From a bacterium (GTDB lineage Bacteria > Krumholzibacteriota > Krumholzibacteriia > LZORAL124-64-63), in NCBI GenBank assembly GCA_018652925.1, contig JABIBH010000397.1, forward strand, positions 1 through 10,742: a stretch of DNA of 10,742 bases, read 5' to 3'. The position numbers and the translations under genes were made by a program. The notes under the pieces were generated by a model. It saw only the letters and a list, made by a program, of their open reading frames with translations. It had not been told where the DNA came from and did no database searches. Of the stretch, positions 462-8,936 are shown one piece after another; position 1 is the first letter of the stretch, and every line of letters begins with the position of its first letter.

Positions 462-495
462 AAGGGCAGCTATATTTTCTAGCTGTCCTTTTCTT
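462..495 (+). terminator. Intrinsic terminator of tRNA-Arg(CCU), overlapping the pqqD-like stop codon
   Basis: An 11-pair stem joins AAGGGCAGCTA (462-472) to TAGCTGTCCTT (480-490), with one G-U pair and a seven-base loop. The right arm runs into a T-rich tail, TTTTCTT. Only the plus strand has the T tail, so this fits termination of the tRNA transcript. The stop codon of the convergent minus-strand gene (479-481) falls inside the hairpin. Confidence 0.8.
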
Positions 496-841
496 GTATA
501 GTAATCATTCCATGTCGCTCCATGTGAAGTAGATACTGCCATACTCGATCACTTGCCTGGTCGCTATCATCCGGATTGCTTTTGATAAACATCTGAATTA
601 TTTCTCTTACTGACTGACTATTACCGATGGCATTCCATATAGTTACGCCTTTGGCGTCAAGTTTAACTTTAATCCATGCTCTGCTATCTGGAAGCAATGG
701 CTGAAAAATAGACCCCCAAAATATGCCCGTAAACCTGGGCAATAACAACTGCATATCACCTGATTCTTCAGTACTTTTGCAGTTATGAATTGGAATCAAC
801 TCAAGAATCTCAACATTGGCAAATCGGTCCTTTTTACTCAT
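479..841 (-). CDS. PqqD-like small protein (peptide-chaperone / RRE fold)
   Basis: A 120-residue soluble protein. The C-terminal half, from about residue 57, has the PqqD pattern: a Leu-Asp-x-x-Gly-x-x-Ile-Trp stretch, then a helix with V-R-E-I, an acidic linker, and a last helix reading YLLHMERHGMI. PqqD proteins bind leader peptides for radical SAM partners in RiPP pathways, but no such partner or precursor peptide is visible here, so the role is unknown. The first half (about residues 1 to 55) matches nothing I recognise. I start it at the ATG at 841 because AGGAGG sits seven bases upstream. An upstream in-frame start would add 16 hydrophobic residues but lacks that support. A perfect TTGACA lies at 917-922 on this strand, though the -10 spacing is poor. 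Confidence 0.7.
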   Translation of the reverse strand: MSKKDRFANVEILELIPIHNCKSTEESGDMQLLLPRFTGIFWGSIFQPLLPDSRAWIKVKLDAKGVTIWNAIGNSQSVREIIQMFIKSNPDDSDQASDRVWQYLLHMERHGMITIQEKDS

Positions 842-848
842 ATCTGTT

Positions 849-854
849 CCTCCT
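849..854 (-). promoter_or_regulatory. Ribosome binding site that fixes the PqqD-like start
   Basis: AGGAGG on the minus strand lies seven bases before the ATG at 841. It selects that start over the longer in-frame alternative beginning at 889. Confidence 0.8.
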
Positions 855-971
855 GGATTCAAAGTAACTAGCAGCAGGCAAACTGGCAATAATTCTCAAG
901 AACTGCTGATATATATTGTCAAAATCGTTATTTTCAGGTATCTATGATGTACATACAAACAGGAGAGTCCA

Positions 972-1786: not shown

Positions 1787-2815
1787 TCAAGAATCAGGAT
1801 TACATATGGAGAGAATTGTCCTCTCCAAAACAATTTCAGGCCCTAAAGGGCTACCTTTTAAGTCTTTTTCGCATTGATTGCATGCAAATAGTGCAGCATT
1901 TACACCGTCTAATCCCCAGCTTTTTGCAGCAACTATAGATTGTCTTGCAGCATATGGAGACATCCCGGCTCTACCAGGTATTTCTCGCTCTGATAAACCT
2001 TCATTCAGCAGCGACTGAACTAAAGCTATCTGTTTGATCTTCCATATCAGCAAGGGCGCAATTTCATAAACCGATCTGCCTTCTGCAAGATACTTTCTGA
2101 AAATCTCAAGTCCAGTAGCAGTTTTTCCAGGACCAATAGCATTAACAAATGAAAATACATCTACAGAGCGTTGGTCCAGAATGATTTTCAGTATATCGTC
2201 TTTTTTTGCAAAGCCATTATCATCTACAATCAATGCAATTTTTGCCAATTCAGTTGTAATAGCAATTTGATCTTCGCCAGTCATCTCAACCAAAAGTTCA
2301 GCAAGTTCACTATCAAGAGTTAAACCATGCTTTTTCGCCTCACTAATTGTGGAAGTCACCAAAGCGACGCCTTTAGGAGGATTCAAATCATAGAAATATC
2401 CAGCAGCTTTTGCGCTTTTAACCCATTTCTTTCTGCCATCAAACTTATTGGCAGAGAATATAATCACTGAAGATTGCTCTGGTTTATCAAAATATTTAAC
2501 CAGAGCATCTTCTAATTTCTGGTCGCTGACTGATTTATCTGCATTCCTGATCCACAGCAGTTGACAATCAGACATCATCGGTATTGCTACAGACTGTTGC
2601 AGTAGCTTGTCAATGCCATGCTGATCACCATCGTATTTGTGAAAATTAAAAGCAGCCCCAGACTCACCAAGCAATGTGTTCGATAAATACTCAACTACAC
2701 CACGGACCTTGTCGGGGTTCTCCCCCTCAAGCAAATAGATCAGCTTTGTAGAACCCGATTTAAATTCAGATCTGAGTGTTTGAATATTATTGCTTGAAGG
2801 TTTCCGCTTGGCCAC
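1787..2815 (-). CDS. holA: DNA polymerase III subunit delta (clamp-loader wrench)
   Basis: A 342-residue protein, matching the usual delta length of about 340. Delta opens the beta sliding clamp as part of the clamp-loader complex. The sequence follows the family order: a YLLEGENP opening (no functional P-loop, as expected), a FNFHKYDGD region, the hydrophobic strand ending LLWIRNA, then SSVIIFSAN and a DGRKKWVKSAK stretch. A helical lid contains SVDVFSFVNAIGPG, and the C-terminal collar includes YAARQSI. I place the start at the GTG at 2815. GGAGG lies seven bases upstream, and this GTG overlaps the lptE stop by one base (TAGTG). An in-frame TTG at 2821 would sit only one base from the ribosome site. 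The lptE-holA order is common in Gram-negative bacteria. Confidence 0.92.
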   Translation of the reverse strand: MAKRKPSSNNIQTLRSEFKSGSTKLIYLLEGENPDKVRGVVEYLSNTLLGESGAAFNFHKYDGDQHGIDKLLQQSVAIPMMSDCQLLWIRNADKSVSDQKLEDALVKYFDKPEQSSVIIFSANKFDGRKKWVKSAKAAGYFYDLNPPKGVALVTSTISEAKKHGLTLDSELAELLVEMTGEDQIAITTELAKIALIVDDNGFAKKDDILKIILDQRSVDVFSFVNAIGPGKTATGLEIFRKYLAEGRSVYEIAPLLIWKIKQIALVQSLLNEGLSEREIPGRAGMSPYAARQSIVAAKSWGLDGVNAALFACNQCEKDLKGSPLGPEIVLERTILSICNPDS

Positions 2816-3315
2816 TACCAATCCTCCACTATTGTAGCCAATATTTCCCGAACAATTTCTTCAGCTGCCTCTACTTTGGCAGTTTGTTCCGAGGTTCCAT
2901 CCGGGTCATCAAGTATATAGTTTCCTGTACCTGCAATTTTTTTATTTTCAAATAAGTAAGAGTCGTCACCTTTAACTCGCATTGATAATTCCACAAGAAT
3001 CTGCACTTGATACTCATCGACTTTCAAATCAGATGTTGTAAAAGCTTCTTTTAGTTTGTACCTGACTACTCTGCCTGATATTTCCGAACTGGAAATTGCA
3101 TCGTCAACAATCTTCAATGTATTATCGGCCTGAATTGCCATTATGATTGCATCAGTCAATTCAATTCCGATACTAGGTTCAGCAGTTTCATTTACTAAAT
3201 ATGGAATACTAACTAGTTTAATTGTATCATCAACTCTACCTGATGACGCAGAATAAATTCCGCACCCGGAGCAAAGAACAATTCCAACTAATAGTATTGG
3301 TAGTATGAATCTCAA
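2815..3315 (-). CDS. lptE: LPS-assembly lipoprotein LptE-like
   Basis: A 166-residue predicted outer-membrane lipoprotein that would plug the LptD barrel and help place lipopolysaccharide on the cell surface. The N-terminus has a hydrophobic signal of about 14 residues and the lipobox-like VLCSGC, with C18 as the lipidation site. The Cys at -3 of the lipobox is unusual. The mature part has the family marks of the non-enteric LptE group: a VSIPYLVNETAEPSIGIELT stretch, then SGRVVRYKLK and a QILVELS strand. The start is TTG at 3315, overlapping the TGA of the upstream regulator by four bases, with GAGGAG five bases ahead. This is strong translational coupling to a gene that normally has no link with LPS transport. 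The identification rests on pattern plus the lptE-holA order. Confidence 0.8.
   Translation of the reverse strand: MRFILPILLVGIVLCSGCGIYSASSGRVDDTIKLVSIPYLVNETAEPSIGIELTDAIIMAIQADNTLKIVDDAISSSEISGRVVRYKLKEAFTTSDLKVDEYQVQILVELSMRVKGDDSYLFENKKIAGTGNYILDDPDGTSEQTAKVEAAEEIVREILATIVEDW
2823..2827 (-). promoter_or_regulatory. Ribosome binding site that fixes the holA start
   Basis: GGAGG lies seven bases upstream of the GTG at 2815 and inside the end of lptE. It favours GTG over the TTG at 2821, which is too close to it to be used. Confidence 0.7.
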
Positions 3316-4706
3316 TTTTGCTCCTCTGCAAGTGTCTTCAGGCGATACCGAATTTTATCCCGGTTCAAGCCAAGATAACGGGCTGCTTTGCTTTTATTAC
3401 CGCCAGCTGCAGACATTGCTTTTGACACCAAAATAGTTTCCAGTTCATTCAACAGTGTTTCAAGGTCGACAGGCTCCTCATCAAGTGGCCTGCTCATTGC
3501 TGCAACTATATTAGAGATAATATCATTTTCAACAGTTTTACCTGATGGTGTTAATCCAAGATGAACAGGTTCAAGGAGATCATTGTCGGCTTTTAATATT
3601 GCCATCTCAATTGAGTTGCTCAGTTCTCGGGAATTACCAGGCCAATGATAGGCCTCCATAGCAAGTTCTGCATCGCGATTAAAGCCAGCAATTCGTTTGT
3701 GATAGATAGCATTATAGTAACCCAGGTAATGTTGGGCAATCGGCATAATATCACTATTTCTAGCTCTCAATGGCGGAATAATACAACCACTGGTTTTTAA
3801 CAAGAAGTAAAGATCTTCACTGAATGTACCCTGATCAACAAGTAGTTGTAAATTATTGCAAGTACTAACAATCAGTTTGAAATCAGAATGAATTTTTGTT
3901 TGTCCATTAAACCGTACAAAAGTGCCTGTTTTAATAGAGTCCACTAATAACTGTTGAACTGATAATGGGATTGAGGCTATCTCTTCTAAAAACAAGACAC
4001 CATTATGTGCAAGCTCAAGTAAACCTGTGTTTGTGTGGCTGTCCGATGCATCAACATTTGCCCCAAACAGCTCAGATTCGATTTCATCATCAGGAAGTAA
4101 AGAACAATTGAAAGTCAAAAAAGGTCCAGCAGCGAAAGCAGACTTTTCAAACAAATGCCGTGCATAAGATTTCTTGCCGACACCATTTTCACCTTCGAGT
4201 AATATTGTTTTTCCAGAATCAAAAGCTTGATAAATTGATGAACCAAGAGTTGCACTAAGGGCAGGCATATCTGTGACATCAGGCTCTCTGTTTGATGAAC
4301 TGCCCTCTCTTCTTTTCAGCAATAATAATTCGCGGGTCTCAAGGGATGCTTTCAAGCCACGTTTAACCGATGCCAATAATTGCTCAAAATTGAATGGTTT
4401 TGAGATGTAATCAAAAGCACCTTGATGCATAGCTTTAACTGCTGTTGCTACTGTGGAGTCTGCAGTCATCATAATGATGCACATGCCAGGGTATTGTTGA
4501 TGAATTCGACGCATTACTTCCAGACCGTCAATATCGGGAAGCATATAATCCAGAAGTACTAAATGGGGTTGTTCTTTACTCGCAGTTTCAACTGCTTCCA
4601 GGCCAGCCCATGCAGAAACCACTTTATAATCCTGCTGCTCGAGTGTAGTTCTAAGAAATCTTACGATTGGTGCCTCGTCATCAACGACAAGAATTACTGG
4701 CTGCAT
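3312..4706 (-). CDS. NtrC-family response regulator with a degenerate AAA+ (sigma-54) domain
   Basis: A 464-residue protein in three parts. Residues 1-120 are a receiver with an intact phosphorylation site: D9/D10, D53, T81, K103. Residues about 145-385 are an AAA+ domain of the sigma-54 activator type with Walker A GENGVGK (172-178), an ESELFG segment (210-215) and the sensor II motif WPGNSREL (355-362). Residues about 425-460 are a Fis-type helix-turn-helix (AAGGNKSKAARYLGLNRDKI). The AAA+ domain lacks the GAFTGA loop: ELFG runs straight into a polar ANVDASDSHTN segment. Walker B is LFLEE instead of LFLDE. The two arginine fingers of the FRxDLYYRL motif are S296 and L302. It should still be phosphorylated and bind DNA, but classical sigma-54 activation is unlikely. 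The ribosome site AGGGG precedes the ATG. No histidine kinase is in the window. Confidence 0.88.
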   Translation of the reverse strand: MQPVILVVDDEAPIVRFLRTTLEQQDYKVVSAWAGLEAVETASKEQPHLVLLDYMLPDIDGLEVMRRIHQQYPGMCIIMMTADSTVATAVKAMHQGAFDYISKPFNFEQLLASVKRGLKASLETRELLLLKRREGSSSNREPDVTDMPALSATLGSSIYQAFDSGKTILLEGENGVGKKSYARHLFEKSAFAAGPFLTFNCSLLPDDEIESELFGANVDASDSHTNTGLLELAHNGVLFLEEIASIPLSVQQLLVDSIKTGTFVRFNGQTKIHSDFKLIVSTCNNLQLLVDQGTFSEDLYFLLKTSGCIIPPLRARNSDIMPIAQHYLGYYNAIYHKRIAGFNRDAELAMEAYHWPGNSRELSNSIEMAILKADNDLLEPVHLGLTPSGKTVENDIISNIVAAMSRPLDEEPVDLETLLNELETILVSKAMSAAGGNKSKAARYLGLNRDKIRYRLKTLAEEQN

Positions 4707-4783
4707 TAAAACCCCTAATTTAAAGACTGTGATTCAATACAATCTACAAGATTAAGGGTACAAACGGCAAGGAAGTATTCTAT

Positions 4784-5564: not shown

Positions 5565-5589
5565 AAAAACCGAACGACTATCCGTTCAA
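5565..5589 (-). terminator. Possible weak terminator or leader hairpin
   Basis: On the minus strand, GAACG pairs with CGTTC around a six-base loop, extended by two G-U pairs and followed by TTTTT. It could end transcripts coming from the export gene upstream. If the promoter at 5600-5628 is used, the hairpin lies at the very 5' end of that RNA, where it could only protect the end, not terminate. The stem is short. Confidence 0.35.
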
Positions 5590-5602
5590 TCTGATTCAGA
5601 TT
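5588..5602. promoter_or_regulatory. Perfect 15-base palindrome at the presumed transcription start
   Basis: AATCTGATTCAGATT has perfect seven-base arms around one base. It overlaps the end of the TATAAT box of the putative minus-strand promoter and covers the likely start of transcription, which is where a repressor would bind. The binding protein is unknown; the neighbouring Fis-type regulator is one candidate. Confidence 0.45.
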
Positions 5603-5653: not shown

Positions 5654-6598
5654 TTATAAACCAATTCTATGCAAAGCAAACGCAATAGTTGCAGCTGTAG
5701 TGAGTGTACCTAAAATCAGCGGGTAGACTGTTCTCCAAAATCCGCCTCGATTCAATGTAACTTGTACAACATCTCCAGGGTAAACCAGAGGGTTTCCTGA
5801 AAGATTTCCTTCAAGCAAAAACAATTTGCAATTTATAATACTCGAAGTATAAAGATCTCCGTGTACATTGTGAACCCAAATTACTTTTTCCAGTTTAGCA
5901 TTATCAGTTGGAGCACCAGCTAGCATCATTACATCAACAAGTCGCATTGGATCTTTCAATCTGTAGGTACCAGGAGAAGAAACTCCGCCAAATACTTGCA
6001 CACCAGAAACTTGCGATGTTAAAAACAATTGTGAAGATGTAGGAATAACAACTGTATCTCCGGAATTAAGAAATATTGGTGATACAGAACTATTGCCTGA
6101 AACAAGATCAGAAATATCCACATCAGAAGATTCATTTATACCATCAACACTGGATATTATTTTTGCATCGGTCAAAACAGCTTCTGCGGTAACTCCACCA
6201 GATTCCCTTATTAAATCCCAGAGAGTTGGATTTGATGAAAATGTGTAACTTCCAGGCTGGCGTACCGCACCCAATATATAAATCTGCAAAGAATTAAACT
6301 GAACAATCGACAAAGTAACTTCCTGAATAGATCGATCAAATAGTTCAAGCTTGGCTTTAAGTATCTGCTCTGCCTCAGTAACTGAAAAACCTGCAACAGC
6401 AATAGCACCAACAGAAGGAAGTACAACAGTTCCATCCTGCCGAACTGTCAATTGTCTATCCATATCCGGGCTTTGTAAAACATTCAATTGCAAGACATCA
6501 CTTACTCCCAGAAGATATACCTCATCTCCAGGTGCAGCACATATTAAAGCAGGAACTAAAAGCACTAAAAATATAAGTGATCTAAATTTCATTTTCAT
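5654..6598 (-). CDS. Polysaccharide export protein (Wza-like, SLBB domains)
   Basis: A 314-residue periplasmic/outer-membrane protein that would form the exit channel for an exported polysaccharide. It has a signal peptide (about residues 1-22) and a Poly_export domain at about 25-105, with GVSDVLQLNVLQSPDM and VRQDGTVVLPSVG. A first SLBB domain (ILGAVRQPGSY, then LWDLIRESGGV) and a second (VFGGVSSPGTYRL, then LVDVMMLAGAP) follow. A PGDVVQV strand precedes the C-terminal hydrophobic helix (about 293-312), which matches the helix that lines the Wza pore. The one signal-region Cys is in ALIC, a poor lipobox, so it may not be a lipoprotein as Wza is. The first of two nearby ATG codons is used, because TGGGG lies at the right distance. 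No Wzc-type partner is nearby. Confidence 0.92.
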   Translation of the reverse strand: MKMKFRSLIFLVLLVPALICAAPGDEVYLLGVSDVLQLNVLQSPDMDRQLTVRQDGTVVLPSVGAIAVAGFSVTEAEQILKAKLELFDRSIQEVTLSIVQFNSLQIYILGAVRQPGSYTFSSNPTLWDLIRESGGVTAEAVLTDAKIISSVDGINESSDVDISDLVSGNSSVSPIFLNSGDTVVIPTSSQLFLTSQVSGVQVFGGVSSPGTYRLKDPMRLVDVMMLAGAPTDNAKLEKVIWVHNVHGDLYTSSIINCKLFLLEGNLSGNPLVYPGDVVQVTLNRGGFWRTVYPLILGTLTTAATIAFALHRIGL

Positions 6599-6614
6599 CA
6601 GAAGCCCCAGTCTC

Positions 6615-7556
6615 TTAATTATTTGAATCAGCTTTATACCAATTCACAGTTTTTTCCAGGCCAATCTGGAAAGATGTTACCGGTTCATAGCCAAGCAATT
6701 GTTTCGCCATCGAAATATCAGCTTGAGAATGAGGCACATCACCTATTCTAGTCTCAGCATAATTGGGTTCTTTGTCAACACTTAGAAGTGAAGATATCGA
6801 CTCGTAAAGTTGGCTCAAAGAAATCCTGTCACCGCATGCAATATTTACAATAGCACCGTCTGGATTATCAATCTGAGCAGCCAGTATATTGGCGTGAACA
6901 ACATTGCCAACATATGTGAAATCTCTGGAGAACCTGCCATCACCATTAATTGTTGGTGTGTGTCCTGCCAGCAACTGTGTTATAAACAACGGCAGCACAG
7001 CTGCATACTGGCTTTGAGGGTCCTGTCTTTCGCCAAAGACATTAAAGTAGCGTAATCCAATAGCACTTAATCCATAGATGTCATTAAACACCTTCAAGTA
7101 CAACTCTCCAACATACTTGTTTACTGCATAGGGAGACATTGGCTTCGATGGCATAGTTTCCACTTTGGGAAGAACATCAGAGTCACCATATGCGCTGCTG
7201 CTTGCAGCATAAACAACGCGACCTACACCCGCATCTCTGGCAGCAACAAGGACATTAAGTGTTCCATTAACATTGTGATCGTTGGAAGTAACAGGATCAT
7301 CAACACTTCTTGGGACAGATGCCAGTGCTGCTTGATGGAATATGGTATCGATCCCTTGAAAACATTCATTAAGTAGATCGAGGTCTGTTATAGAGCCTTG
7401 AACAAAATCAACTTCATCTTTAAATGATTCCATATTTTCCAACTTACCAGTTGATAAGTTATCAAGTACGGTCACCTCACAATCACGACTAACAAGTTCA
7501 GCTGCAATATGTGAACCGATGAACCCTGCGCCGCCTGTGACTAGGCACTTTTTCAT
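6615..7556 (-). CDS. NAD-dependent UDP-sugar 4-epimerase, UDP-GlcNAc/GlcNAcA type
   Basis: A 313-residue short-chain dehydrogenase-type epimerase that inverts C4 of a UDP-hexose through a keto intermediate. It has the Rossmann motif GGAGFIG (8-14) and the NAD-ribose Asp in VLDNLSTG. The catalytic serine lies in the AASSSAYGD stretch and the Y143-x3-K147 pair in SPYAVNK. A LRYFNVFGERQDP segment and INGDGRFSRDF follow. The ASVPRS, LRYFNVFG and GDG.FSRDF pattern is that of the WbpP/TviC subgroup, which acts on N-acetylated UDP-sugars or their uronic acids, rather than of GalE. It lies 18 bases after the dehydrogenase gene and 16 bases before the export gene, so the three are almost surely one transcript. 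The ribosome site is GGGGGG, four bases before the ATG. Substrate is inferred from subgroup and neighbour. Confidence 0.88.
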   Translation of the reverse strand: MKKCLVTGGAGFIGSHIAAELVSRDCEVTVLDNLSTGKLENMESFKDEVDFVQGSITDLDLLNECFQGIDTIFHQAALASVPRSVDDPVTSNDHNVNGTLNVLVAARDAGVGRVVYAASSSAYGDSDVLPKVETMPSKPMSPYAVNKYVGELYLKVFNDIYGLSAIGLRYFNVFGERQDPQSQYAAVLPLFITQLLAGHTPTINGDGRFSRDFTYVGNVVHANILAAQIDNPDGAIVNIACGDRISLSQLYESISSLLSVDKEPNYAETRIGDVPHSQADISMAKQLLGYEPVTSFQIGLEKTVNWYKADSNN

Positions 7557-7574
7557 TTTCCCCCCAATTAAATA

Positions 7575-8867
7575 TTACAGACTGAAGACATTTTCATTGT
7601 TGATTGCACCTAAAGCATTGCGTGTATCAACAGTTAGAACATCTGCAGCAAGAATCAGTCCATGATCTACAGAGCTATGAGGTGTAACGATTATTACAAC
7701 ATCATAGCTGGATATTTCGTCAACTCCCCACTTATCAGTTTTCCTTGCAAAATCAAACCCAGCCAAAGAGCCAACTTCAGGATCAAACCAGGAGACTTCT
7801 GCACCCTTGTCGTGAAGCAATTGGATTATGTCCAGAGCTGGTGATTCACGAACATCGTCGATATTAGGTTTGTATGAGACTCCAACAATAAGAGCTTTGC
7901 TCCCATTAACTGGTTTTTTGCGAGAATTCAAGGCATTAGCTGTAATGTTCACAACATGTGCAGGCATTTTTGAATTTATAGCGCCCGCAAGTTCAATGAA
8001 CCTTGCATCTGATCCCGATTGCTTTGCCTTCCATGACAAGTAGAATGGATCAATTGGTATACAATGACCACCCAAACCAGGACCAGGATAAAAAGGCATA
8101 TATCCAAATGGTTTGGTAGAAGCAGCATCGATGACTTCCCAAACATTGATTCCCATTGAGCTGCACATTAAAGCTATCTCATTTGCCAAACCGATGTTTA
8201 CACTGCGAAAGGTGTTTTCGAGAAGTTTAACTGTTTCTGCTACACGGGATGAAGAAACAGGAACTACAGAATCCATTACTTGGCTGTAAAGGCTGACTGC
8301 CATTTCTGTACACTCAGGAGTCACACCACCAACAACTTTGGGTATATTTTTAGTTTGGTAATGTTTGTTCCCTGGATCAACCCGTTCAGGAGAAAAAGCA
8401 AGGTAAAAATCTTTGCCAACGATTTTGCCATTTTCAGATAACCTTGGCAATATCACTTCTTCTGTTGTTCCTGGATAAGTTGTGCTCTCAAGAATAATCA
8501 ACAATCCATCATGCATATAAGGTACGATAGCATCAACCGATGCGTCGATAAATGAAATGTCCGGATCTTGAGTCTTCCCTAAAGGTGTTGGTACACATAT
8601 ATTTACACTATTACATTCAGATATTACTGAAGATTCAGTAGAGGCCGACAACAATCCCCTTTCAACTAAATCCTTAACGTCACTATCCGGGACATCTATA
8701 ATATAACTGGAACCTGAGTTTATTTGATCCACTTTTTGTTTGTCGATGTCAATGCCCACAACTTTAAAACCAGCTTTACCATATTCAACGGCAAGTGGTA
8801 AACCAACATAACCCAGCCCAATTACTGCAAGTTTTGCGGTTTTATCCTCGAATTTTGATTTTGACAA
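7575..8867 (-). CDS. UDP-sugar 6-dehydrogenase (UDP-GlcNAc/GalNAc dehydrogenase type)
   Basis: A 430-residue NAD-dependent enzyme oxidising C6 of a UDP-N-acetylhexosamine in two steps to the uronic acid. It has the N-terminal Rossmann motif GLGYVGLP (17-24), the segment ICVPTPLG, and catalytic residues in AETVKLLENTFR (Lys about 214) and GPGLGGHCIPIDP (Cys 269). The C-terminal domain contains the GVSYKPNIDDVRESP stretch. This pattern matches WbpA/TviB/WbpO better than UDP-glucose dehydrogenase. I choose TTG at 8867: AGAGGG lies seven bases upstream, and the resulting start (LSKSKFEDK) fits the family. An in-frame GTG at 8930 would add 21 residues without a ribosome site. With the epimerase it would make a UDP-GalNAcA-like sugar. 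Confidence 0.88.
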   Translation of the reverse strand: MSKSKFEDKTAKLAVIGLGYVGLPLAVEYGKAGFKVVGIDIDKQKVDQINSGSSYIIDVPDSDVKDLVERGLLSASTESSVISECNSVNICVPTPLGKTQDPDISFIDASVDAIVPYMHDGLLIILESTTYPGTTEEVILPRLSENGKIVGKDFYLAFSPERVDPGNKHYQTKNIPKVVGGVTPECTEMAVSLYSQVMDSVVPVSSSRVAETVKLLENTFRSVNIGLANEIALMCSSMGINVWEVIDAASTKPFGYMPFYPGPGLGGHCIPIDPFYLSWKAKQSGSDARFIELAGAINSKMPAHVVNITANALNSRKKPVNGSKALIVGVSYKPNIDDVRESPALDIIQLLHDKGAEVSWFDPEVGSLAGFDFARKTDKWGVDEISSYDVVIIVTPHSSVDHGLILAADVLTVDTRNALGAINNENVFSL

Positions 8868-8874
8868 CTTGGCG

Positions 8875-8880
8875 CCCTCT
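8875..8880 (-). promoter_or_regulatory. Ribosome binding site that fixes the dehydrogenase start at TTG
   Basis: AGAGGG lies seven bases before TTG at 8867, the same spacing as at the PqqD-like and holA starts. The alternative GTG at 8930 has nothing comparable upstream. Confidence 0.65.
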
Positions 8881-8936
8881 CTTGCAAAAAAATCACATTG
8901 AATTGCTTTATTTAAAAACAGAACCAGCACGAAGCA

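Follow-up and report, generated by a model that had tools for sequence, protein, structure and literature searches.

Loss of the sigma-54-contacting loop and in-trans ATP hydrolysis residues from an NtrC-type response regulator within one bacterial genus

The window, meaning the whole analysed stretch of 10,742 nucleotides, carries the gene of an NtrC-type response regulator on its minus strand (3312..4706; 464 amino acids, ATG start); all features described below lie on this strand unless stated otherwise. In Pfam terms, the protein consists of a receiver (PF00072), a sigma-54 interaction domain (PF00158) that reaches only 119 bits, an AAA+ lid (PF25601), and a Fis-type helix–turn–helix (HTH; PF02954). 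The receiver spans residues 1 to 118 (4353..4706) and keeps the phospho-acceptor D53 together with T81 and K103. The HTH spans residues 433 to 459 (3330..3410) and has an RDKxRYR helix as in the orthologs. On a single strand, the regulator follows exopolysaccharide genes and precedes lptE, holA, and the thioredoxin gene. The exopolysaccharide genes encode an export protein (SLBB/Poly_export), an NAD-dependent epimerase, and a UDP-sugar dehydrogenase (5654..8930). They are followed by a gene with a profile match to priming sugar transferases (PF02397; 4784..5524), which is the counterpart of the probable ancestral target discussed below. Directly downstream of the regulator are lptE and holA (1787..3315), in the same order in the orthologous loci. 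The same overall gene order, with recN at the far end, is found in many of the loci fetched from the window's family, and because it recurs in this way, the orthology of the regulator is backed by gene order in addition to similarity. An Rfam scan returned two tRNAs and nothing else. Separately, 479..889 encodes a small protein whose PqqD-like match is weak and stays below the cut-off; its gene adjoins a DUF4870 gene in many family loci and has a dN/dS of 0.25, which is above that of most neighbours.

The AAA+ domain has lost the parts by which such proteins act as motors. In loop 1 (residues 216–226; 4029..4061), the GAFT[DG]A motif is replaced by ANVDASDSHTN, meaning that E212-L-F-G215 is followed by a polar stretch that is two columns shorter than GAFT[DG]A in the alignment. 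The ortholog family usually reads GAFTDA here, with GAFTGA or GSFTGA in some members. Walker B (residues 238–242; 3981..3995) is changed from LFLDE to LFLEE (D241E) with E242 kept, and the arginine-finger motif (residues 295–303; 3798..3824) is changed from FREDLYYRL to FSEDLYFLL (R296S and R302L) with D298 kept. The original prediction had described the polar segment behind ELFG, which was confirmed residue by residue, as well as the LFLEE Walker B and the S296 and L302 at the arginine-finger positions, which hold likewise; its statement that D53, T81, K103, Walker A, the sensor II Arg, and the Fis HTH remain is borne out by the alignment. Further losses come in addition to those it listed. 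Sensor I (residues 282–283; 3858..3863) is changed from T-N to T-C (N283C), with ATN becoming STC. The changes are concentrated in the AAA+ domain, where 28 of the 66 columns that are invariant in all 34 orthologs outside the genus are altered in both species of the genus. Elsewhere, the corresponding counts are 1/15 in the receiver, 4/16 in the lid, 2/2 in the link between lid and HTH, and 0/8 in the HTH. When 12 of the 34 intact orthologs were left out one at a time as a control, each showed 0 or 1 such AAA+ change. Compared with a sigma-54 enhancer-binding protein, the regulator shares the descent, with receiver and Fis HTH, as seen from Pfam, gene order, and alignment; it has neither GAFTGA nor a tolerated variant in loop 1, and it lacks the arginine fingers, the Walker B Asp, and the sensor I Asn.

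The nucleotide pocket is largely kept. Walker A reads GENGVGK (residues 172–178; 4173..4193), with S174N as the one changed invariant column there, and the sensor II Arg360 (3627..3629) is held within W355-PGNSR360EL. Walker A, the switch Asn, the Walker B Glu, and the sensor II Arg are retained as G172, G175, G177, K178, N200, E242, and R360. Eight of the 11 invariant residues assigned to the protein's own nucleotide pocket are retained, including Lys178, Asn200, and Glu242, as opposed to none of the eight assigned to loop 1 and the two arginine fingers (Fisher p 0.003, for residue sets picked after the data had been seen). The PspF equivalents of these positions are taken from the alignment and from the PspF numbering. 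The fold is predicted to be preserved, the structure model having a mean pLDDT of 84.3 and a pTM of 0.53, and its best PDB matches are NtrC1 and NtrX, followed by LuxO, NtrC4, and VpsR, the last at rank 12. The roles of the switch Asn, the Walker B Glu, the arginine fingers, and sensor II follow the review and mutant literature on PspF (PMC7175178, PMC4132715). In the latter, PspF E108Q with one arginine-finger change still supported transcription, and therefore the loss of the fingers alone is no proof of inactivity.

The losses can be assigned to one genus. It is represented by two fragmented assemblies, the window's genome (G000) and G001 (92% identical), with no further genome of the genus present in the set. 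The ortholog set outside the genus comprises 34 proteins, 28 from the window's family and six from other families of the class, with the family matches G013, G032, and G033 left out of the ortholog table. Within the family, the regulator gene is found at E 1e-75 or better in 33 of 38 genomes, the other five being fragmented assemblies, and a wider search for close relatives returned 19 other loci that are 26 to 37% identical. Only the window protein and its counterpart in G001 are without GAFT[DG]A/GSFTGA, FLDE, and FR.DL..RL, with these motifs intact in 34/34 orthologs outside the genus. The original prediction had asked whether the losses are fixed among orthologs; both genomes of the genus share all of them. 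It had also taken intact orthologs in close relatives as a sign of recent decay or sequence error. Such orthologs do exist in other genera, but the decay or error that they should signal is contradicted: sequence error is ruled out, since the second species carries every loss, and pseudogene formation is rejected on account of a reading frame that is intact in both species and a dN/dS of 0.075.

This dN/dS (Nelson–Gojobori method; regulator dS 0.59) refers to the whole regulator in G000 versus G001, the separate values being 0.106 for the receiver, 0.077 for the AAA+ domain, 0.060 for the lid, and 0.014 for the HTH (residues 416–464). All domains, the altered AAA+ domain among them, are thus held by purifying selection, which partly supports the original prediction; the phospho-control that it took to be kept is putative, given that the kinase encoded beside the ortholog in other families was not found in the window's family, and so is ATP binding. 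The same two genomes offer eight other pairs of regulators with strong PF00158 matches (212–245 bits, some read in part, L017 having no pair in the set), for which dN/dS is 0.027 to 0.067 in seven and 0.172 in one; a ninth such regulator, present in two pieces, gives 0.029 and 0.031. The regulator is under strong constraint, slightly weaker than that on most of its intact relatives, and has lost GAFTGA with receiver and HTH still under selection, as is characteristic of the GAFTGA-less NtrC-like class. Its divergence from the orthologs is uneven. The median identity to the orthologs is 36.9% in the AAA+ domain versus 71.2% among the orthologs themselves, compared with 53.1 versus 55.3% in the HTH and 46.6 versus 52.5% in the receiver. 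On the stem branch of the genus, the same tree gives 4.26 substitutions per site for the AAA+ domain, 1.25 for the lid, 0.80 for the HTH, and 0.73 for the receiver; this stem is long and near saturation, so that the branch value is approximate and long-branch attraction may have affected where the genus falls in the tree, but the contrast between the AAA+ and the other domains is also visible in the plain identities. Receiver and HTH have evolved at ordinary rates. Domain identities, the burst on the stem, and dN/dS taken together therefore indicate that the AAA+ domain was remodelled and then held, not abandoned.

The circuit to which the ancestor probably belonged can still be read in relatives. 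A histidine kinase gene adjoins the regulator ortholog in other families of the class, the kinase having a PAS domain in the two tested, and it lies between sugar transferase and regulator where both were fetched (families f3 and f7, one f6 genome, and one f5 genome). At E 1e-80, the kinase is detected in 30 of the 42 genomes from other families, as opposed to 0/38 genomes of the window's family at this threshold and 0/17 at E 1e-50; a more diverged kinase could escape these searches. In 28 of the 30 kinase loci, the regulator stands beside the kinase, and 27 of these 28 regulators contain a GAFT motif, the exception being a 129-residue piece at a contig start; six of the kinase-locus genomes overlap with the set of 34 orthologs. 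Nine of the 30 loci are without a sugar transferase match and two have too little upstream DNA, which leaves 19 regions upstream of the sugar transferase gene that were scored. The distance between the best-scoring sigma-54-like element and the best-scoring TGGGK-N6-MCCCA palindrome is 140 to 162 bp in 16 of these 19 regions, with both scores at 8 or more in 15 of them, and two further regions have a spacing of 186 bp. Shuffled regions reach the 140- to 162-bp spacing in 1.3%. Many of the single sigma-54 matches are weak on their own, and it is the spacing that constitutes the evidence; the palindrome was first read off four of these genomes, without which the count is 12/15, and the genomes are related. 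The arrangement of a palindrome 145 to 159 bp upstream of a sigma-54-like promoter before the priming sugar transferase is seen in three families of the class (L122–L124, L153–L171). Palindrome and sigma-54-like element are probably the ancestral enhancer and promoter for exopolysaccharide priming. Other arrangements occur as well: two family f2 genomes have a sigma-54-like element upstream of the epimerase gene instead and no palindrome, and in genus g6 of the window's family, all four genomes have a strong sigma-54 element (score 10–11) upstream of the UDP-sugar dehydrogenase gene. In the remaining loci of the family, the 260 bp before the first exopolysaccharide gene or before the sugar transferase gene hold no element that reaches a score of 10.

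In the window itself, neither the 350 bp upstream of the sugar transferase gene nor the DNA upstream of the regulator showed a sigma-54-like element, and no ancestral palindrome was found before the sugar transferase gene. Two weak sigma-54-like matches occur at other positions. One, with a score of 9 of 12 (0.03 in shuffles), is located 97 bp above the export gene, within the reading frame of the epimerase; the other, scoring 10, is at 3486 on the plus strand, within the regulator gene. Sigma-54 as such is still encoded, its DNA-binding domain, the only one searched for, being present in both species within open reading frames of 470 and 467 residues, which rules out a genus-wide loss of this factor. 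The regulator therefore seems to have left the sigma-54 circuit, whereas the organism has not lost sigma-54. The ancestral palindrome was rejected as a present target site in the genus, since its perfect copies are not enriched: G000 has none (control 1), and G001 has two (control 2), both inside open frames. Elsewhere, copies and controls number 26 and 13 (G012), 11 and 7 (G016), 5 and 2 (G022), and 3 and 2 (G026). No target of the regulator was found in the genus, and a scan for sigma-70-like consensus elements across the window gave 31 matches versus 30.4 expected, which is chance level.

The genome contains a second regulator of this kind. Two of its 16 PF00158 matches are response regulators without motor motifs, the other one (L047:2815-4146 on contig C405 of G000; L112 in G001) being likewise an NtrC-type response regulator without GAFTGA. 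Herein, the Walker B DE is changed to NN, and both arginine fingers are lost (FSRELLYHL). Its gene in G000 follows a histidine kinase gene and precedes S24-peptidase and UmuC-like genes, and its dN/dS between the two genomes is 0.103. Six relatives with 44 to 57% identity from three other genera, one of them partial, share the same losses, and for this reason it represents an older motorless lineage.

We consider the regulator of the window to be a sigma-54-independent DNA-binding regulator, either a repressor or of sigma-70 type, in which the AAA+ domain would act in oligomerisation or in binding a ligand and no longer as a motor; we put the probability of this reading at roughly 0.7. Judged from its motifs, the protein is likely unable to remodel the sigma-54 holoenzyme and would be independent of sigma-54. 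It would bind ATP without hydrolysing it and act at sigma-70 promoters, possibly including its own. The ancestor, as suggested by the other families, would have been a sigma-54 activator with a neighbouring histidine kinase, probably switching on the priming sugar transferase gene. The kinase would have gone first, at the level of the family. Within the genus, the AAA+ domain was then stripped of the loop that contacts sigma-54 and of the residues used to hydrolyse ATP in trans. The receiver and the DNA-binding helix were kept, as were most of Walker A, the Walker B Glu, the switch Asn, and the sensor II Arg. What remains of the AAA+ domain may now serve oligomerisation or ligand binding in a repressor or sigma-70-type regulator. 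A bolder formulation would be that of a datable conversion of a two-component sigma-54 exopolysaccharide activator into a motorless ligand-sensing or autoregulatory factor, kinase first and then loop and in-trans ATPase residues, with the AAA+ domain turned into an allosteric sensor for ATP/ADP or c-di-GMP and with a new operator over its own promoter; in this full form, we regard it as tentative and rather doubtful.

A narrower form of the preferred explanation concerns the leader between sugar transferase and regulator (4707..4783). Herein, the regulator would be an autoregulator or local repressor that binds the palindrome AATCTTGTAGATT (4741-4753) over its own -10 and controls the regulator–lptE–holA transcript, perhaps also the sugar transferase gene. 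Between the two species, the leader of 77 bp shows 96.1% identity, compared with 78.7% for the gap above the sugar transferase gene and 84.1, 84.4, 93.5 (with a tRNA gene inside), and 94.7% (the 19-bp holA–trx gap) for other gaps, the dS of the neighbouring genes being 0.33 to 0.91. Such conservation may, however, reflect a promoter or RNA structure (folding z, -2.5 and -1.4). The palindrome is present in both species and overlaps the -10 of a candidate sigma-70-like promoter (TTGCCG 4770-4765, N18, TAGATT 4746-4741), and a sigma-70-like promoter (TTGnnn-N17-nATAnT) precedes regulator, lptE, and holA in 27 of 29 other family loci outside the genus; the match in the window, however, is not above shuffles (p 0.27). 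Furthermore, the inspected leaders of other loci do not show AATCTTGTAGATT, and the palindrome AATCTGATTCAGATT upstream of the window's sugar transferase gene differs from it in spacing and is not kept in G001. Autoregulation is thus possible but far from probable, and it is put forward as a testable lead suggested by the leader, not as a result. As a separate observation, a hairpin with a T-rich tail lies between export protein and sugar transferase (5567-5592; also L029:1-100); its stem differs between the species with pairing kept (GAACG/CGTTC versus GATTG/CAATC), and it resembles a terminator or attenuator, with a TATAAT-like element just above it.

The remaining alternatives differ in what they make of the dead motor. 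It could be the ligand site of a c-di-GMP-sensing sigma-70 activator of the exopolysaccharide genes, analogous to VpsR or EpsI/Nla24. The position directly downstream of these genes would fit, as would the appearance of VpsR among the structure matches and the precedent of EpsI/Nla24 of Myxococcus, an NtrC-like regulator that is encoded in the eps locus and binds c-di-GMP (PMC4877007); since the exopolysaccharide neighbourhood is common to relatives with an intact motor, we consider this reading unlikely. Even less probable is an indirect influence on sigma-54 transcription through mixed rings with an intact relative or through competition for enhancer sites. Intact regulators and sigma-54 are encoded in the same genome, and Caulobacter NtrC, which is without GAFTGA, is reported to promote some sigma-54-dependent expression in certain mutants (PMC12421884), but the paralogs compared are only about 28 to 32% identical, those aligned differ in their HTH helices, and the ancestral enhancer palindrome shows no enrichment in the genus. 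Last in rank is a gene that is decaying towards loss. As much as the many formerly invariant residues now missing and the kinase that was not found might suggest it, the frame intact in both species and the low dN/dS, above all in the HTH, make decay highly improbable.

The preferred reading of a motorless, sigma-54-independent regulator bears on how this class arises. GAFTGA-less NtrC-like regulators have mostly been described singly, which makes their origin hard to see. In the present case, a single branch carries the losses, and related families still show the intact orthologs and the kinase together with what were probably the ancestral promoter and enhancer. Hence, the purpose of an enhancer-binding AAA+ domain without its hydrolysis and sigma-54-contact parts becomes directly testable. 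A PF00158 profile match does not imply sigma-54 dependence.

GAFTGA-less NtrC-like proteins are established, with TyrR, DhaR, HupR, VpsR, and YplP as examples and about 110 homologs with deviating motifs counted in 2011 (PMC3162934), and Caulobacter NtrC is a recent case (PMC10274813, PMC12421884). The NtrC proteins of Caulobacter and Rhodobacter capsulatus and HupR resemble the regulator in their layout of receiver, AAA+ domain, and DNA-binding domain, and as here, GAFTGA was lost in one orthologous lineage and kept in others; they act with sigma-70 (PMC10274813, PMC3162934). Caulobacter NtrC still needs its Walker A Lys and Walker B Asp (PMC10274813), whereas the regulator is without the Walker B Asp and, in further contrast to it, also without the sensor I Asn, both arginine fingers, and a neighbouring kinase that could be found. 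VpsR of Vibrio cholerae is a GAFTGA-less polysaccharide regulator that was judged probably not sigma-54-dependent (PMC3162934); the structure model matches it, but with 22% identity in the structural alignment, and it belongs to another orthologue family. Brucella NtrX, the second PDB group by fold and the third by sequence, is likewise without GAFTGA in the alignment but, unlike the regulator, keeps LDE and FREDLFHRL. Membership in NtrX itself was rejected, the regulator scoring 269.3 bits versus a cut-off of 600 bits for NF051870. The system of PrsK and PrsR, a kinase and an NtrC-like regulator that are encoded beside exopolysaccharide genes and have a link to sigma-54 sites (PMC1569441), resembles the arrangement in the relatives. 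Membership in these two families was rejected as well: the window protein reaches 243.6 bits and two intact orthologs reach 394.3 and 372.7 bits versus a cut-off of 502.6 bits for TIGR02915 (PrsR), and the one kinase tested from the relatives reaches 95.7 bits versus 300 bits for TIGR02916 (PrsK). A search that covered part of the literature turned up no description of this orthologue family, nor of a comparable loss at the level of a genus. The loss of GAFTGA is already known; what is new is that the Walker B Asp and the sensor I Asn are lost jointly with the arginine fingers and that the probable ancestral circuit can still be read in relatives.
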